From contig JAEPMY010000006.1 of the NCBI GenBank assembly GCA_017643685.1, forward strand, positions 1 through 64,000: 64,000 nucleotides of DNA, in the 5' to 3' direction. A model generated the notes under the pieces. It was not told where the DNA came from. It was given only the letters and a program-made list of their open reading frames with translations, and did no database searches. The DNA is from Sneathiella sp. Its GTDB lineage: Bacteria > Pseudomonadota > Alphaproteobacteria > Sneathiellales > Sneathiellaceae. Position 1 is the first letter of the stretch, and every line of letters starts with the position of its first letter. Shown piece by piece: positions 43,760-50,523 of this stretch. Both the position numbers and the translations under genes were made by a program.

Positions 43760-45223
43760 TTATACTCCTTTCTGAGTGTCTTCGAGGGGAACCGCTTTCC
43801 AAAAATAGCGTCTGAAACCCCGCTTGTTGTCGTAATCTTTTACCCGAAATACCATTCGCATCTTGTCACCGACCGAAAGTTCTGCATCCGGTGCGATGTC
43901 TGTGAAATCAGCCATCAAGCGCCCTCCGCCTTCAAATTGAACCATACCGTAATAGGCTGGTGGGTCAGGGGAGTAAGTCAAACGGTCTGCTGTAAACGAA
44001 TTGACGGAAGCGATCTTTTCGGCGAAGGGGTGATCTTCCTGTGTGCCGATTTCGCCGCAATTTTCGTTCACGCACATGTTCGTTTTTGGGAATTGAATTG
44101 TGCCGCATTTACTGCATTCGCCGCCAACCATTCGCTGAGCGAGATATCGGTTTCTGTAATGAGTTGTGAGACCTGTATTTTTGTCAACCTCTGCCCGGAT
44201 GCCTTGCTCTGTGGAGAGCTCTCCATTGATAACAAGGAAGCGGTTATAGTTGCTCTCTGGCCGACCATTCTTCAGGGAGCTGGAAAGGCTTGCAGCAGCA
44301 GATTTTACTTTGTCAGTTGCTTCAAACAGGAGAGCGTCGCAGCCTTGACCAAAGCTAGCAACAAGGATTTTGTCTCCAGGCTTTGCCTGTTCAAGGGCCT
44401 GAACAAGCATTACGATTGAGTGAGCAGATCCGGTTTCACCCACCGTTGCTTGTAGGTTGTCAGCGACAGCATCTGGGTTGATACCAGTTTTTTTTGCAAG
44501 TCCGGCGGCGACATTTCTTGCGGCAACTGGAAAGCAGAATGTCGTGATGTCTGCAGCATTAATACCTGCCTTGTCGAGGAGAGCGGAAATTGCTGTTGGG
44601 ACGATCTTCATATAGCCTTCGTCCCGGATCCAGCGCTCTTCCCAAGTGTAGTCATGGTTGTTTTCTTCGCCGCGAAAATGATCCACAAAGTCGACAGATT
44701 CAGTATGTGCGCCCAATAGGCGTGCCATTATATCGCCTTCACCAACAAGCAGTGCCGCGGCCCCGTCGCCAGATGTCATTTCTAAGGCGTTACCCGCTTT
44801 TGTCTGACGCTTCTCAGACGCAGTGAAAAGAACTTTACCCGCGCCGCCCTTGGTGGCTTGCAAAGCCATCAGGAGGCCAGACGTTCCCGCTCGCATCGAA
44901 GATGAAAAATCTAGCGTTTGCAAAGAACTTGAGAGATTGAGAGCATCGGCGACGATGCCGGCATTTTGACGGTCCTGGAACGGATAACTGGTTGAGGCCA
45001 TATACACACCTGAGATATCCGCTCTATCTTGGTCGGCAAGACAGTTACGTGCGGCTTCGACGGCCATCGTGACACTGTCTTCATCCCAGTTAGCCGCGGC
45101 GCGTTCACCACGCGCTAGACCTTTTAGACCTGGGTTGAACCAAGCATGGGCTTTAAAGATTTCACTTCTTTGCAAACGGCTTTTGGGGATGTATCCGCTA
45201 AAAGCCAAGATTCCGACTTCCAC
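43760..45223 (-). CDS. HMG-CoA-synthase-like / DUF35 OB-fold fusion, probable thiolase partner
   Basis: A 487-residue fusion. Residues 1-310 match the HMG-CoA synthase/KAS III thiolase fold; residues 350-480 are a DUF35 domain with zinc ribbon cysteines 370, 373, 384, 389 and a following OB-fold. At the position of the nucleophilic cysteine (archaeal pattern ACKAGT) this protein reads SMRAGT, with Met110 in place of Cys. The catalytic histidine region (HMP in relatives) reads FCFPVAARN. Independent catalysis is therefore doubtful. Adjacent coupling to the SCP2 thiolase suggests a heteromeric thiolase complex in which DUF35 binds CoA. Confidence 0.85.
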   Translation of the reverse strand: MEVGILAFSGYIPKSRLQRSEIFKAHAWFNPGLKGLARGERAAANWDEDSVTMAVEAARNCLADQDRADISGVYMASTSYPFQDRQNAGIVADALNLSSSLQTLDFSSSMRAGTSGLLMALQATKGGAGKVLFTASEKRQTKAGNALEMTSGDGAAALLVGEGDIMARLLGAHTESVDFVDHFRGEENNHDYTWEERWIRDEGYMKIVPTAISALLDKAGINAADITTFCFPVAARNVAAGLAKKTGINPDAVADNLQATVGETGSAHSIVMLVQALEQAKPGDKILVASFGQGCDALLFEATDKVKSAAASLSSSLKNGRPESNYNRFLVINGELSTEQGIRAEVDKNTGLTTHYRNRYLAQRMVGGECSKCGTIQFPKTNMCVNENCGEIGTQEDHPFAEKIASVNSFTADRLTYSPDPPAYYGMVQFEGGGRLMADFTDIAPDAELSVGDKMRMVFRVKDYDNKRGFRRYFWKAVPLEDTQKGV

Positions 45224-45377
45224 GCCTTCTCCTCCTTATTTTTATTGGGGCAGGAATTATACTTAATCACTCAATCCAGCAGACTTCAGGCATTCAAGAG
45301 CATTTTTGAACTTAAGATACACAACATTTTATTCTTCTTATTTAGTGTAAATCAAATTCGGCTAACAAACTAGCGAT

Positions 45378-45396: not shown

Positions 45397-45459
45397 CTAA
45401 TTAAAATGACTTTGAAAAAGGGGATGTGCCTTGCGCTCCCGTGGGGAGTGGTTATAGTG

Positions 45460-45972
45460 ATGCCGAAAAAGAAACTGGGGCAGGATATGGATTATCTGGA
45501 TCATCGAGCTGGCTTTATTTTCAGTGACATAGCGCGCTTTCGAGCTCGACTGTTTGATAGCCTTCTTGCGCCCCATGGTCTCACCACATCTCAAGCGTGG
45601 GTTCTGGCGCAATTGTTTGTTGAGGATAATTTACCTCAAAAAGAATTGGCGCGGCGTATGGATGTGGGGACTGTTACGGTTGGTGGGCTTATTGATCGGC
45701 TGGAAGCTCGCGGATTCGTTGAACGTAAAGTAGATCCGGACGACAGGCGCGTTAAAAGGGTGTTGTTGAAAGATGCTGCCCGACCTATCGGACGGATCAT
45801 GTCTGAGTGCGGCCGTCAGGTTAATAAAATTACCTTCACTGATATGGCGCCAGAAGATGCGCAGCGTATGATGGATAATATGGTGACCATTCGCCGTAAT
45901 TTGTTGAACGCGCTTGATAATGACAAATCAATTCATAACGCGACCGATATCTTGCTGGAAAAGTCGAAGTAA
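45460..45972 (+). CDS. MarR-family transcriptional regulator
   Basis: A winged-helix MarR protein of about 170 residues (from ATG 45460). The recognition region is NLPQKELARRMDVGTVTVGGLIDRLE near residue 52 (key part LARRMDVGTVTVGGLIDRL), followed by the wing RKVDPDDRRVKRVLL. It is divergent from the fusion/thiolase operon and is probably its repressor, released by a CoA thioester or free acid. The frame is open from 45379; ATG 45460 follows GGGGAG by 12 bases, while ATG 45487 is a shorter option right before the conserved domain. Its end faces a second MarR gene 4 bp away. Confidence 0.88.
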   Translation: MPKKKLGQDMDYLDHRAGFIFSDIARFRARLFDSLLAPHGLTTSQAWVLAQLFVEDNLPQKELARRMDVGTVTVGGLIDRLEARGFVERKVDPDDRRVKRVLLKDAARPIGRIMSECGRQVNKITFTDMAPEDAQRMMDNMVTIRRNLLNALDNDKSIHNATDILLEKSK

Positions 45973-45976
45973 CGAC

Positions 45977-46432
45977 TTAATTTGAAGACTTGTCCATTTC
46001 CAGCATGGAGCTGTTGAGTTTGTTCAGATAATGAACAAATGCAATTCTGTCATCTTCAGAAAAACCTGAAAGCGCTTGATCATAAAACGCGTTAATTAGT
46101 GGGGCAATGCGTGCCCATACCGCATGGCCTTCTTCTGTCAGGCAAATCCTTCGGGATCGTTGATCATTTGGATCGGGTTTCCGACCTATTAAGCTCCGGT
46201 CCTCTAATCTGCTTAGGACACCGTTCATATTCTGCCGGCTGAGGCGCAGGTATTCACATAATTCGGAAACCGTCATTCCTTCGCCTGCAGCGGGACGAGA
46301 CAACGCACCTAGAATGGACCACTGCTGAGTAGTGATCTGCTCTTCCTCTAGGGCTTGCGCCCCTACTTTTTGCAGGGTGTTTGCCGTTTGGTAGAGGCGA
46401 AAGAACAATCTATTGCTTAAATTATCGAACAT
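45977..46432 (-). CDS. MarR-family transcriptional regulator, BadR-like by position
   Basis: A 151-residue MarR protein. MTVSELCEYLRLSRQNMNGVLSRLE near residue 60 (key part CEYLRLSRQNMNGVLSRL) is the recognition helix region and RKPDPNDQRSRRICLTEEG the wing. It is divergent from the acyl-CoA dehydrogenase-badH-badI operon, with a perfect 16-bp palindrome between them. BadR, the MarR repressor of the bad/ali genes in Rhodopseudomonas, holds the same kind of position, so the same role is likely. Orthology is not proven by eye. Confidence 0.9.
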   Translation of the reverse strand: MFDNLSNRLFFRLYQTANTLQKVGAQALEEEQITTQQWSILGALSRPAAGEGMTVSELCEYLRLSRQNMNGVLSRLEDRSLIGRKPDPNDQRSRRICLTEEGHAVWARIAPLINAFYDQALSGFSEDDRIAFVHYLNKLNSSMLEMDKSSN

Positions 46433-46467
46433 AAGTCTTCATTTATCGGTATTGCTGAAAAAATATC

Positions 46468-46483
46468 TGTCAATATATTGACA
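46468..46483. promoter_or_regulatory. Perfect 16-bp palindrome, candidate operator for the ring-degradation operon
   Basis: TGTCAATATATTGACA is exactly self-complementary. It lies 36 bp before the MarR start (-) and 48 bp before the dehydrogenase start (+), where a MarR dimer would block both promoters. Confidence 0.7.
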
Positions 46484-46530
46484 TAAAGTTTGAAAGAGGT
46501 AAAGCTAAAGAAAAACAAAGGGAGGGCCAA

Positions 46531-47676
46531 ATGAATTTCGAACTTAGCCCAGATCAAAAAGCGATGATTGCTGCTGCAGAGCAATTTGCCATGGATAAGA
46601 TTGCACCTGGTTATCAAGCGCGGGAGAAGGCTGCAGGGCTTGACCGAGTGCTTCTAAAGGAGATGGGCCAGCTTGGCTTTATCGCGCCTGAGCAGTCAGA
46701 AGCTTTCGGTGGCTCCGAGGTTTCTTATCTAACAAGTGGATTGATTATGGAGGCTTTGTCAGGTGCTGATTTCAATATGGCATATGTCCAGCTTTTAGGG
46801 TCGTTAAACACGCAAATATTGGTGCGTTATGCCTCTACCGCACTGGCAGAGAAGTGGATTCCGAAGATTTGCCGCGGTGAGGCGGTTCTTGGGGTGGCCT
46901 TGACGGAGCCTGGTGGGGGCTCAGATGCGGCTAACCTGCAGCTTCGGGCAACTAAAGTAGAAGGTGGGTATATCCTGAATGGAGAGAAGGCATCTATCTC
47001 TGCGGTTGATCAAGCCGATATCATGATTGTGTTTGCGAGGACCGGCGAAAAAGATAGCCGAGCAAAAGGGGTGAGTGCCTTTTTAGTAGAGATGAATTCT
47101 AAAGGGGTCACTTCCGCCCGCTATGAAGGGATGGGGCAGCATGCAGTTGGGCATGGGTCTATCTTTTTTGAAGACGCGTTTGTTCCTGATGCCCATCGTT
47201 TAGGAGATGAAAACAAGGCTTTTACTCAAGTAATGGAAGGGTTTGATTTCAGTCGTGCCCTTATCGGGTTGCAGTGTCTTGCTGTCGCCCGTCAATCATT
47301 AAAAGAAAGCTGGAAATATGCTTCTGAAAGGGAAGCATTTGGTGCACCAATTTCAGTTAATCAGGGGGTGACCTTCCCGCTCGCCGAGGCAGAAACCATG
47401 TTAGAGGCGGCTCGATTGCTTTGTTACAAGACGTTGTGGCTTAAAGATAACAACCAGCCGCATACGACCGAAGCGGCGATGTGCAAGTGGTGGCCACCTA
47501 AACTGGCGTTTGAAATCGTACATCAATGTCTGCTGACCCATGGTTTTGGTGGATACACAAGTGATTACCCATTTGAACAGCGTCTGCGGGATGTTCTGGG
47601 ACTGCAGATTGGGGATGGAACTGCAAACATCATGAAGATGATTATTGCGCGACAAAAATTGGGAGAAGTACAATGA
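46531..47676 (+). CDS. Acyl-CoA dehydrogenase, probable cyclohexanecarboxyl-CoA dehydrogenase (AliB-like)
   Basis: A 381-residue FAD-dependent dehydrogenase with LTEPGGGSDAANLQLRA near residue 128, NGEKASISAVDQAD near residue 152 and LLTHGFGGYTSDYPFEQRLRDV near residue 330. By neighbourhood (MarR, BadH, BadI) it should make cyclohex-1-ene-1-carboxyl-CoA from cyclohexanecarboxyl-CoA, as AliB does. The start follows a GGGAGGG site. Its stop overlaps the badH start by four bases (ATGA), so translation is coupled. The exact substrate is inferred from context only. Confidence 0.87.
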   Translation: MNFELSPDQKAMIAAAEQFAMDKIAPGYQAREKAAGLDRVLLKEMGQLGFIAPEQSEAFGGSEVSYLTSGLIMEALSGADFNMAYVQLLGSLNTQILVRYASTALAEKWIPKICRGEAVLGVALTEPGGGSDAANLQLRATKVEGGYILNGEKASISAVDQADIMIVFARTGEKDSRAKGVSAFLVEMNSKGVTSARYEGMGQHAVGHGSIFFEDAFVPDAHRLGDENKAFTQVMEGFDFSRALIGLQCLAVARQSLKESWKYASEREAFGAPISVNQGVTFPLAEAETMLEAARLLCYKTLWLKDNNQPHTTEAAMCKWWPPKLAFEIVHQCLLTHGFGGYTSDYPFEQRLRDVLGLQIGDGTANIMKMIIARQKLGEVQ

Positions 47677-48431
47677 GAGGTCTAGAAGGCAAAAGGGCTA
47701 TTGTCACAGGCGGCGGCGGCGGTCTTGGAACCGCGATTTGCCAGCGTTTGGCAGAAGAAGGTGTTTGTGTCGGTGTGTTCGACTTAAATCAGGAAGCCGC
47801 TGAGAGAACGGCGGCGACGCTTCAAACGCCCGGTGCGGCCTATTCCGTTGATATTTCCGATCAGGAAGCGGTGAATGCCGCAGTAGTGGAGTTTGAGGCG
47901 ACGAAAGGTCCCGTAGATATTCTTGTCAATAATGCGGGCTGGGATAAGGTCGGCACGTTCCTCGATACAGATAAAGAACTTTGGGAAAAGATTGTGGCGG
48001 TCAACCTTTGGGGGCCTCTCCATATGACGCATGCCGTTGGGAGAGGAATGTCAGAGCGAGGCGCGGGTAAAATCATCACCGTGGCATCTGATGCGGCACG
48101 TGTCGGATCCAGCGGCGAAGGCGTCTATTCTGCCTGCAAGGGGGGAATGGTGGCTTTCTCGAAAACGCTTGCTCGTGAACTTGCTCGTAAAAATATCAAT
48201 GTTAATGTTGTGTGCCCGGGACCATCTGACACGCCAATTCTGAACGATTTTGTTGGCGAAGGAGAAATGGGGCAAAAAATATACGAAGGCCTGAAGCGGG
48301 CCATCCCGTTCAAGCGGTTGGGGCAACCAGAAGATTTCGGCGGAATTGTAACGTTTCTAGCCAGTGAAGAATCCGACTATATCACAGGGCAGGTCATTAG
48401 TGTGTCTGGCGGCCTGACGATGGCAGGATAA
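47673..48431 (+). CDS. badH: 2-hydroxycyclohexanecarboxyl-CoA dehydrogenase (BadH-like SDR)
   Basis: A 252-residue short-chain dehydrogenase. The NAD loop is TGGGGGLGTA near residue 12, NNAGWDKV near residue 89 is a marked BadH trait, and the catalytic residues are S140-Y153-K157 type (SDAARVGSSGEGVYSACKGG). It should oxidise 2-hydroxycyclohexanecarboxyl-CoA to the 2-keto thioester. The C-terminus DYITGQVISVSGGLTMAG is very close to the BadH I recall from Rhodopseudomonas. It is coupled to the dehydrogenase upstream, and the ring-cleaving hydrolase follows 11 bp downstream. Confidence 0.88.
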   Translation: MRGLEGKRAIVTGGGGGLGTAICQRLAEEGVCVGVFDLNQEAAERTAATLQTPGAAYSVDISDQEAVNAAVVEFEATKGPVDILVNNAGWDKVGTFLDTDKELWEKIVAVNLWGPLHMTHAVGRGMSERGAGKIITVASDAARVGSSGEGVYSACKGGMVAFSKTLARELARKNINVNVVCPGPSDTPILNDFVGEGEMGQKIYEGLKRAIPFKRLGQPEDFGGIVTFLASEESDYITGQVISVSGGLTMAG

Positions 48432-48442
48432 GGAAAACAAAA

Positions 48443-49225
48443 ATGTCATACGAAGATATTCTTTATGAAGTAAAAGACGGTGCGGCTTGGATCACGATTA
48501 ACCGTCCGGAAAAGTATAATGCGTTTCGCGGCCAGACTGTTGAGGAGCTGATCTCTGCCTTTAATAAGGCCGCTTGGGATAATGAAATTGGGGTCGTTGT
48601 TTTAACAGGCGCCGGTGACAAGGCCTTTTGCACTGGGGGTGACCAGTCGGCGCATGATGGGCAGTATGACGGGCGCGGAACTATTGGTCTTCCGGTCGAG
48701 GAATTACAATCCTTGATCCGCGATATGGCGAAGCCCGTTATTGCGCGTGTTCAAGGTTTCGCTATTGGCGGCGGTAATGTTCTTGCCTCTATCTGTGATA
48801 TGACAATCGCTTCTGAGAACGCACAGTTTGGACAGGTTGGTCCAAAAGTTGGCTCCGTTGATCCAGGGTTTGGAACTGCTTATCTGGCGCGAATTGTTGG
48901 TGAGAAAAAAGCGCGAGAGATTTGGTATATGTGTCGCCGTTATAAAGCGGATGAAGCAGAGCGTATGGGGCTGGTAAATCGGGTCGTAGCACACGACCAA
49001 TTGGATCAGGAGGTAGAAGCTTGGTGCGCTGAAATTATGGAGAAAAGTCCGACAGCTCTCGCCATTGCAAAACGTTCTTTCAATATGGATAGTGAAAATA
49101 TTCGGGGCATTTCCTCTATGGGGATGCAGGCGCTCAAACTGTATTATGATACAGAGGAATCCCGTGAGGGGGTAAAGGCTTTCAATGAAAAGCGGAAGCC
49201 TGAATTTAGGAAATATGTGAAATAG
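48443..49225 (+). CDS. badI: 2-ketocyclohexanecarboxyl-CoA hydrolase (BadI-like)
   Basis: A 260-residue crotonase-fold enzyme that should open the ring of 2-ketocyclohexanecarboxyl-CoA with water, giving pimeloyl-CoA. FCTGGDQSAHDGQYDGRGT near residue 68 and FGQVGPKVGSVDPGFGTAYL near residue 133, plus the C-terminal LYYDTEESREGVKAF, are hallmark BadI segments also related to MenB. The chain ends KRKPEFRKYVK, also as in BadI. An AAGGAAAAC site precedes ATG 48443. It is the last gene of the dehydrogenase-badH-badI unit, closed by a terminator. Confidence 0.92.
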   Translation: MSYEDILYEVKDGAAWITINRPEKYNAFRGQTVEELISAFNKAAWDNEIGVVVLTGAGDKAFCTGGDQSAHDGQYDGRGTIGLPVEELQSLIRDMAKPVIARVQGFAIGGGNVLASICDMTIASENAQFGQVGPKVGSVDPGFGTAYLARIVGEKKAREIWYMCRRYKADEAERMGLVNRVVAHDQLDQEVEAWCAEIMEKSPTALAIAKRSFNMDSENIRGISSMGMQALKLYYDTEESREGVKAFNEKRKPEFRKYVK

Positions 49226-49284
49226 TTCTGATGTTAATGCGGGGTATTTGCACTATTCCGAACACATAAACTTCTTTATAGTTG

Positions 49285-49318
49285 GCCAGACCTAATCAAA
49301 CGGGTCTGGCTCTTTTTT
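49285..49318 (+). terminator. Rho-independent terminator after badI
   Basis: An 8-bp perfect stem GCCAGACC/GGTCTGGC with 10-base loop and a run of seven T. Confidence 0.88.
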
Positions 49319-49389
49319 TGTGGGAAGAATGAATAATAGTAACCCCCTCAGATTTCTCGCCGACCCCTTTCCATAAGCGGGAGACATCG

Positions 49390-50523
49390 ATGCCACTCGA
49401 TAAAAATAAGAACAACACTAATGGTCCACTCTCAGGCAGACTTGTAATTGATGTAAGTCAAGGAATTGCGGGCCCTTACTGTGCGCAGATGCTGGCGTCC
49501 TATGGGGCGCGGGTGATCAAGATTGACCCGCCAAGCGGGGACTGGTGCCGTGCTGTCGGAACTACTTTTGGGACATTGTCTTACTATGCCGTTGCCTATA
49601 ACCGGGGTAAGGAAGGTATCGTTCTCGATTTAAAGCAAAAAGAGGATTTGGAGACGCTTTACGAGCTGGTCTCTGAGGCTGACATTTTTCTGGAGAGTTC
49701 CCGTCCGGGTGTTGCTGAAAAAATTGGAATTGATTTTGAGACATTGAAGTCAAAAAATTCATCTTTAATTTATTTGTCTATTAGCGGTTTCGGGCAGCAA
49801 GGCCCGTACTCCACGCGCCCCTGCACTGATGGGGTGGCGCAGGCCTACAGCGGCTTAGTCAATGGCAATGTTGGTGAAGATGGGTTGCCGCATAAATTGG
49901 ATATCCCGATTGTAGATATCGTGACAGGTTTAATGGCCTGTCAGTCAATCGGGATGGCTTTGTTGCAGCGGGATCGTGATGGCCAGGCACAATATCTGGA
50001 TAACAATCTGGTTGCGAGTGCGCTGGAAGTTCAGAAGGTGAAGTTAATTGAACAGCACCTGAACGGCTCTGTTGTGGCGAAATTGAATGTTCCATCCGGA
50101 ATTTATGCAGCAAAGGATGCCAATATTGCCATTGCTCTTGCAACCTATGCCCATTTTCAAAAGCTAATGGACCTTCTGGATGCTAATGATGTGATTGCTG
50201 AGATGGGGCTTGATAGTTTTGAAGCTTGTATGAGGGAAGAAGAACCGCTTCGTACAATGCTACGTGAGATTCTGGGAGCAATGCCAGCGGAGCATTGGAT
50301 GTCTCTTTTGGGTGGTGCAGGCATTATTGTGAACCGTATTAACAGTCTTGAAGATGTTTTAGCAGATGAACAAGCCAAGGAAGGTGGTCTTCTTCGTGAG
50401 GTGTCGCATGCAGGGCTGAGTGATTTTCTTCTGCCGCAGTTGCCTTTGACCATTGGTGATGTAGGCGACGCACCAGAAAAAGGACAGGATACCGAGGCTG
50501 TCCTTGCAGAACTCAGGGGCTGA
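49390..50523 (+). CDS. CaiB/BaiF family (class III) CoA-transferase
   Basis: A 377-residue class III CoA-transferase. SQGIAGPYCAQMLASYGARVIKID is the N-terminal CoA-binding pattern (key part AGPYCAQML near residue 27), and RPCTDGVAQAYSGL near residue 140 contains the presumed catalytic aspartate. It follows the badI terminator and so has its own promoter in 49319-49389. It could activate cyclohexanecarboxylate or a related acid by CoA transfer instead of the AliA ligase, which is absent here; this is an inference from position. A different member of the family lies at 21913. Confidence 0.88.
   Translation: MPLDKNKNNTNGPLSGRLVIDVSQGIAGPYCAQMLASYGARVIKIDPPSGDWCRAVGTTFGTLSYYAVAYNRGKEGIVLDLKQKEDLETLYELVSEADIFLESSRPGVAEKIGIDFETLKSKNSSLIYLSISGFGQQGPYSTRPCTDGVAQAYSGLVNGNVGEDGLPHKLDIPIVDIVTGLMACQSIGMALLQRDRDGQAQYLDNNLVASALEVQKVKLIEQHLNGSVVAKLNVPSGIYAAKDANIAIALATYAHFQKLMDLLDANDVIAEMGLDSFEACMREEEPLRTMLREILGAMPAEHWMSLLGGAGIIVNRINSLEDVLADEQAKEGGLLREVSHAGLSDFLLPQLPLTIGDVGDAPEKGQDTEAVLAELRG

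Follow-up and report, generated by a model that had tools for sequence, protein, structure and literature searches.

The stretch of DNA analysed here, referred to below as the window, comprises 64,000 nucleotides of a Sneathiella sp. contig. Its minus strand carries an open reading frame, read from 45223 to 43760, whose product joins a domain resembling HMG-CoA synthase (HMGCS) to a DUF35 zinc ribbon and OB-fold; the plus strand of the same interval is broken by stops. A gene for an SCP2-type thiolase lies downstream, and a gene for a MarR-type regulator is located divergently on the other side. The features of the locus are collected in Table 1.

Table 1. Features of the HMGCS-like/DUF35 fusion locus, with positions in the window.
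Feature	Position	Strand	Basis
HMGCS-like/DUF35 fusion gene, 487 aa, GTG start	43760..45223	-	Open reading frame and domain searches
HMG-CoA-synthase-like (thiolase-superfamily) domain, approximately aa 1-310	44294..45223	-	NCBIfam, alignment, Foldseek
DUF35 zinc ribbon, Cys370/373/384/389, CX2C-X10-CX4C	44054..44137	-	Pfam, numbering check, homologue alignment
DUF35 OB-fold domain (PF01796)	43844..44011	-	Domain search
Shine-Dalgarno-like AAGGAGGAG, a few nt upstream of the fusion GTG start	45229..45237	-	Read directly
Met110 codon, nucleophile position (Cys in archaeal HMGCS)	44894..44896	-	Numbering and alignment
Thr78 codon, catalytic Glu position, Thr in 109/111 homologues	44990..44992	-	Alignment
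Pro232 codon, catalytic His position, Pro in 108/111 homologues	44528..44530	-	Alignment
SCP2-type thiolase, 401 aa, PRK06157 family; ATG 2 nt past the fusion stop codon	42552..43757	-	Open reading frame, profile match
Thiolase nucleophile Cys88 codon	43494..43496	-	Thiolase alignment
Divergent MarR-type regulator, adjoins the fusion in several relatives	45448..45972	+	Neighbourhood in relatives

Pfam searches placed three domains in the fusion protein, namely ACP_syn_III_C (residues 216-295), zf-ChsH2 (363-390), and OB_ChsH2_C (405-460), all above their curated cut-offs. The archaeal-type HMG-CoA synthase models of NCBIfam, PRK04262 and TIGR00748, matched approximately residues 1-310, both below cut-off (194 against 244 and 149 against 353). 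A sequence-only reading of this locus had described the zinc ribbon and OB-fold as intact, and the ribbon cysteines indeed stand at the positions it had numbered. Within the ribbon stretch at window positions 44057-44116, the last two of them are spaced as CX4C, with CVNENC here and CVNPNC in the family, while DUF35 ribbons usually carry CX2C. About ten homologues (L030, L113, and about eight others) lack most of the zinc cysteines and conserve the rest of the fusion; thus, the DUF35 part varies, and zinc is not universal in the family. One open reading frame encodes both the HMGCS-like and the DUF35 part here and across the aligned homologues, more than 100 of which have the fusion intact. 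A damaged gene or a chance reading frame was therefore rejected, as the frame is both intact and conserved and the nucleophile Cys is missing from all homologues.

The active site was examined by alignment with the HMG-CoA synthase of M. thermolithotrophicus (6esq_I) and across 111 non-redundant fusion homologues. Met110 aligns with the catalytic Cys of the archaeal enzyme, Thr78 with its catalytic Glu, and Pro232 with the His of its FHQP motif, which confirms two points proposed earlier, that methionine occupies the nucleophile position and that the HMP-type histidine has been lost. Among the homologues, the nucleophile position holds Gln in 91, Leu in 11, Met in five, Arg in three, and Ser in one, and Cys in none; two homologues from Rhodococcus plasmids carry Ala and Pro. 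A special role of Met110 was rejected, since the family norm is Gln. No other Cys of the HMGCS-like domain is strictly conserved among the 111 homologues (C61 occurs in 87 and C295 in 75), and the alternative pocket cysteine that the sequence-only reading had weighed against itself did not appear. The fusion therefore lacks both hallmarks of an archaeal-type HMG-CoA synthase, the Cys/Glu/His triad and a model score above cut-off. Replacement of the whole triad across the homologues supports, at the level of sequence, a non-catalytic HMGCS-like domain throughout the family, as had been suggested for the window protein. Conservation reaches at least 98% at 72 positions of the fusion in the 111 homologues; the motifs DYxWEERWIR and RYFWKA are among these, and the pattern indicates strong selection for something besides HMGCS catalysis.

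The neighbouring thiolase is a member of the PRK06157 family (691.8 bits against a curated cut-off of 403), and its residues Cys88, His294, Cys296, and His344 are invariant in all 111 aligned thiolases. Across the 289 sampled genomes of the class, the fusion and the thiolase occupy the identical set of 52 genomes, and after every one of the 55 true fusion genes the thiolase gene comes next in the same orientation, with gaps mostly below 130 nt. The sole fusion match without that arrangement (G210) is a different, unfused relative. Such pairing cannot be chance. Second copies of PRK06157-type thiolases without an adjoining fusion of their own occur in two genomes (L171 and L172, in G197 and G082), and these copies may work alone or share a partner. 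The Sneathiella genome itself contains two more stand-alone DUF35 genes (L001 and L002, at G000:C186 and G000:C22), each located beside a distant thiolase with 26-28% identity to that of the window.

An AlphaFold model of the fusion, built from 89 sequences with the plasmid-record rows left out of the structure alignment, reached a pLDDT of 92.6 and a pTM of 0.93. Every one of its ten best Foldseek matches in the PDB is the HMGCS-like subunit of a three-component thiolase/HMGCS-like/DUF35 complex, namely CsATase (9skh), archaeal HMGCS (6esq, 6et9), PhlA (5m3k, 5mg5), and MucABC (9vbo, 9vbt), with ordinary HMGCS and FabH ranking below them. The sequence-only reading had proposed structure prediction of the fusion together with its thiolase. 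This was carried out on the homologue L012, whose fusion and thiolase lie in one natural in-frame stretch, with the stop read as Gly and 81 aligned rows. The read-through model has a pTM of 0.80 over 911 residues, a value that applies to one chain, joined artificially through roughly 33 linker residues, and with the dimers outside the model. Because two well-folded but unplaced halves would by our own estimate score about 0.55, the model favours, with fair confidence, a defined arrangement of fusion and thiolase. Together with the shared genomes, the strict adjacency, and the invariant thiolase residues, this prediction speaks for the earlier proposal that the fusion is a single-chain partner of the adjacent thiolase.

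The strongest precedent is PpATase, whose HMGCS-like subunit PhlA lacks Cys and Glu and which forms a PhlABC complex of stoichiometry (A2C2)2B4; activity was obtained only when all three proteins were expressed, and the chemistry is carried out only by residues of PhlC (PMC6392133). As early as 2010, fusions of DUF35 to thiolase-superfamily proteins and the "inactive" PhlA were noted (PMC2954200). The window locus resembles PhlABC (PpATase and CsATase, of Pseudomonas and Chromobacterium) in several respects: an HMGCS-like fold without Cys and Glu, a DUF35 zinc ribbon with an OB-fold, an adjoining gene for a thiolase with an intact active site and an active Cys88, and the closest fold. PhlABC, however, consists of three separate chains, whereas here the HMGCS-like and DUF35 parts share one polypeptide. 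PhlABC acylates phenols, while the neighbours of the fusion suggest acyl-CoA catabolism. The replacement residues also differ (Q/M/L, T, and P in the fusion; G, C, and Q in PhlA), identity is about 31%, and the two proteins belong to separate branches.

Other complexes share parts of this architecture. The archaeal acetoacetyl-CoA thiolase/HMGCS/DUF35 complex (6esq) contains the same three domains and the same fold (TMt 0.91 for the HMGCS part), but its HMGCS is an active, separate chain with Cys114 and Glu82 that makes HMG-CoA. The MucABC acyltransferase of Streptococcus macacae is likewise multi-component and has an HMGCS-like subunit without the Cys (Glu stands there); in contrast to the fusion, it is composed of separate chains, shows about 26% identity, and is encoded in a natural-product gene cluster. 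In the steroid aldolase complexes Shy/Sal and ChsH1-ChsH2/Ltp2, DUF35 is likewise part of a fusion that docks on an enzyme of thiolase fold, but there it is joined to a MaoC-type hydratase, and the enzyme of thiolase fold acts as an aldolase. In the BbsAB benzoylsuccinyl-CoA thiolase, whose operon belongs to a modified beta-oxidation, a DUF35 protein accompanies an SCP2-type thiolase. BbsAB is not known to have an HMGCS-like domain; the window pair shares the thiolase similarity and differs by the presence of that domain.

The maximum-likelihood trees place all fusions in a single group (95/95), separate from one of archaeal HMGCS, PhlA, and MucA (98/95) and from another of unfused alphaproteobacterial proteins (100/99); these trees are unrooted, with long branches and one active reference. 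The unfused group is represented in the same class by two operons, L174 (G210:C15, 4587-7186) and L124 (317-2439), in which a thiolase gene is followed by a gene for an HMGCS-like protein and then by one for a DUF35 protein; in L174, the last two encode 336 and 138 aa and overlap by 4 nt. The unfused HMGCS-like proteins also lack the nucleophile Cys, with Pro in one and Ala in the other. Such an operon is a possible forerunner of the fusion. Since PhlA shares its group with the archaeal enzyme that retains the Cys, and the replacement residues differ, HMGCS catalysis was probably lost more than once, although on an unrooted tree this is only a suggestion. A phylum-wide search for stand-alone archaeal-type HMGCS returned only fusions, with E-values up to 1e-30.

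The genomic surroundings offer hints of function. Annotated plasmids from Sphingomonas, Variovorax, Sphingopyxis, Sphingobium, Azoarcus, and Rhodococcus often carry SDR and MaoC genes ahead of the pair, with genes for acyl-CoA dehydrogenase, enoyl-CoA hydratase, CoA transferase, and CoA ligase around it. The analogy between these acyl-CoA catabolism neighbours and the bbs operon points to thiolysis in a modified beta-oxidation. In the window, the MarR-type gene, a possible regulator of the fusion operon, is accompanied by a divergent aliB-badH-badI-CaiB-like (CoA transferase) operon (45977-50523 for this region) that resembles those of cyclohexanecarboxylate degradation, and its BadI-like protein scores above the equivalog cut-off. 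This operon accompanies the fusion only in close kin and thus says little about its substrate. The BadR operator CAATnnATTG has three exact matches in the window, no more than chance, and two of them (46406 and 46471) are suggestively placed just upstream of the aliB-like gene; a search of the window for the same motif found no exact match at the fusion promoter. A role of the fusion in cyclohexanecarboxylate degradation was therefore set aside as unsupported beyond close kin.

The computations establish the loss of the triad, the intact thiolase residues, a near-obligate gene partnership, and the predicted fold. The fusion is probably a single chain uniting an HMGCS-like subunit that has lost catalysis with a DUF35 subunit, and it probably forms a complex with the product of the thiolase gene 2 nt downstream, leaving all the chemistry to this thiolase. 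Its mode of action would match that of PhlA plus PhlB in PhlABC, or of the HMGCS and DUF35 subunits of the archaeal complex: the thiolase dimer would be held by the dead domain together with the zinc-ribbon/OB domain, and both would form part of the wall of its acyl-CoA pocket. Covalent chemistry would take place entirely at Cys88, His294, Cys296, and His344 of the thiolase, whose activity is expected to depend on the fusion. Most likely, the fusion serves the thiolase as an integral structural partner, enabling it to cut or make unusual acyl-CoA; thiolysis of an unusual 3-ketoacyl-CoA, as a step of a modified beta-oxidation, is probably the usual reaction. More tentatively, the pairs may constitute a separate class of bacterial thiolases, spread across Proteobacteria, Actinobacteria, and other phyla, that need a single-chain dead-HMGCS/DUF35 partner for any activity; this partner would have lost its triad independently of PhlA, and its former HMGCS pocket would have been remodelled for bulky acyl-CoA.

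Three other explanations compete with a structural role. It is very improbable that the fusion works as an HMG-CoA synthase with a different nucleophilic residue: the HMGCS models match across the whole domain, but they do so below cut-off, the catalytic Glu and His are lost along with the Cys, and none of the remaining cysteines is strictly conserved. An activity independent of Cys, such as that of an aldolase, lyase, or decarboxylase, is unlikely but deserves more weight. CtSal, which repurposes thiolase residues, provides a precedent for new uses of thiolase folds, and many polar residues of the domain are invariant or nearly so (D47, E48, D49, D178, D191, E195, R197; H268 in 108/111 and H182 in 97/111). 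These may instead be interface residues, however, and the nucleophile position is chemically too variable (Q, L, M, R, S, and A/P in Rhodococcus) to be well suited to catalysis, with Thr78 and Pro232 standing in for the other two catalytic residues. KSQ-type decarboxylases need Gln and His residues; the window protein has Met and most homologues have Gln, but the aligned His is gone, with Pro in its place in nearly all of them.

We also regard it as rather improbable, slightly more so than a Cys-independent activity, that the fusion serves as an acyl-CoA delivery or regulatory factor instead of a stable structural subunit. DUF35 proteins have been proposed to deliver acyl-CoA non-covalently (PMC2954200), yet relatives of known structure form stable complexes with defined stoichiometry, and in the read-through model the thiolase is positioned fairly confidently.

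PhlA of PhlABC provides an earlier example of an HMGCS-like partner without catalysis, so the principle has been published before. The widespread single-chain PhlA-PhlB-like family, usually found among acyl-CoA catabolism genes, its family-wide census, and the strict pairing with a thiolase are new; a specific description of the fused protein was not found in the searched literature, which covers few subscription journals. The gene pair is common, occurring in 52 of the 289 sampled genomes of the class, and it is annotated only as "OB-fold domain-containing protein" and "acetyl-CoA acetyltransferase". If the pair is one enzyme, studies of the thiolase alone could mislead, and many degradation pathways would gain a likely C–C cleaving step. 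The fusions apparently represent a second lineage whose thiolase-associated HMGCS partner has kept its structure after losing catalysis, and they open the structural role of such a partner to direct testing.
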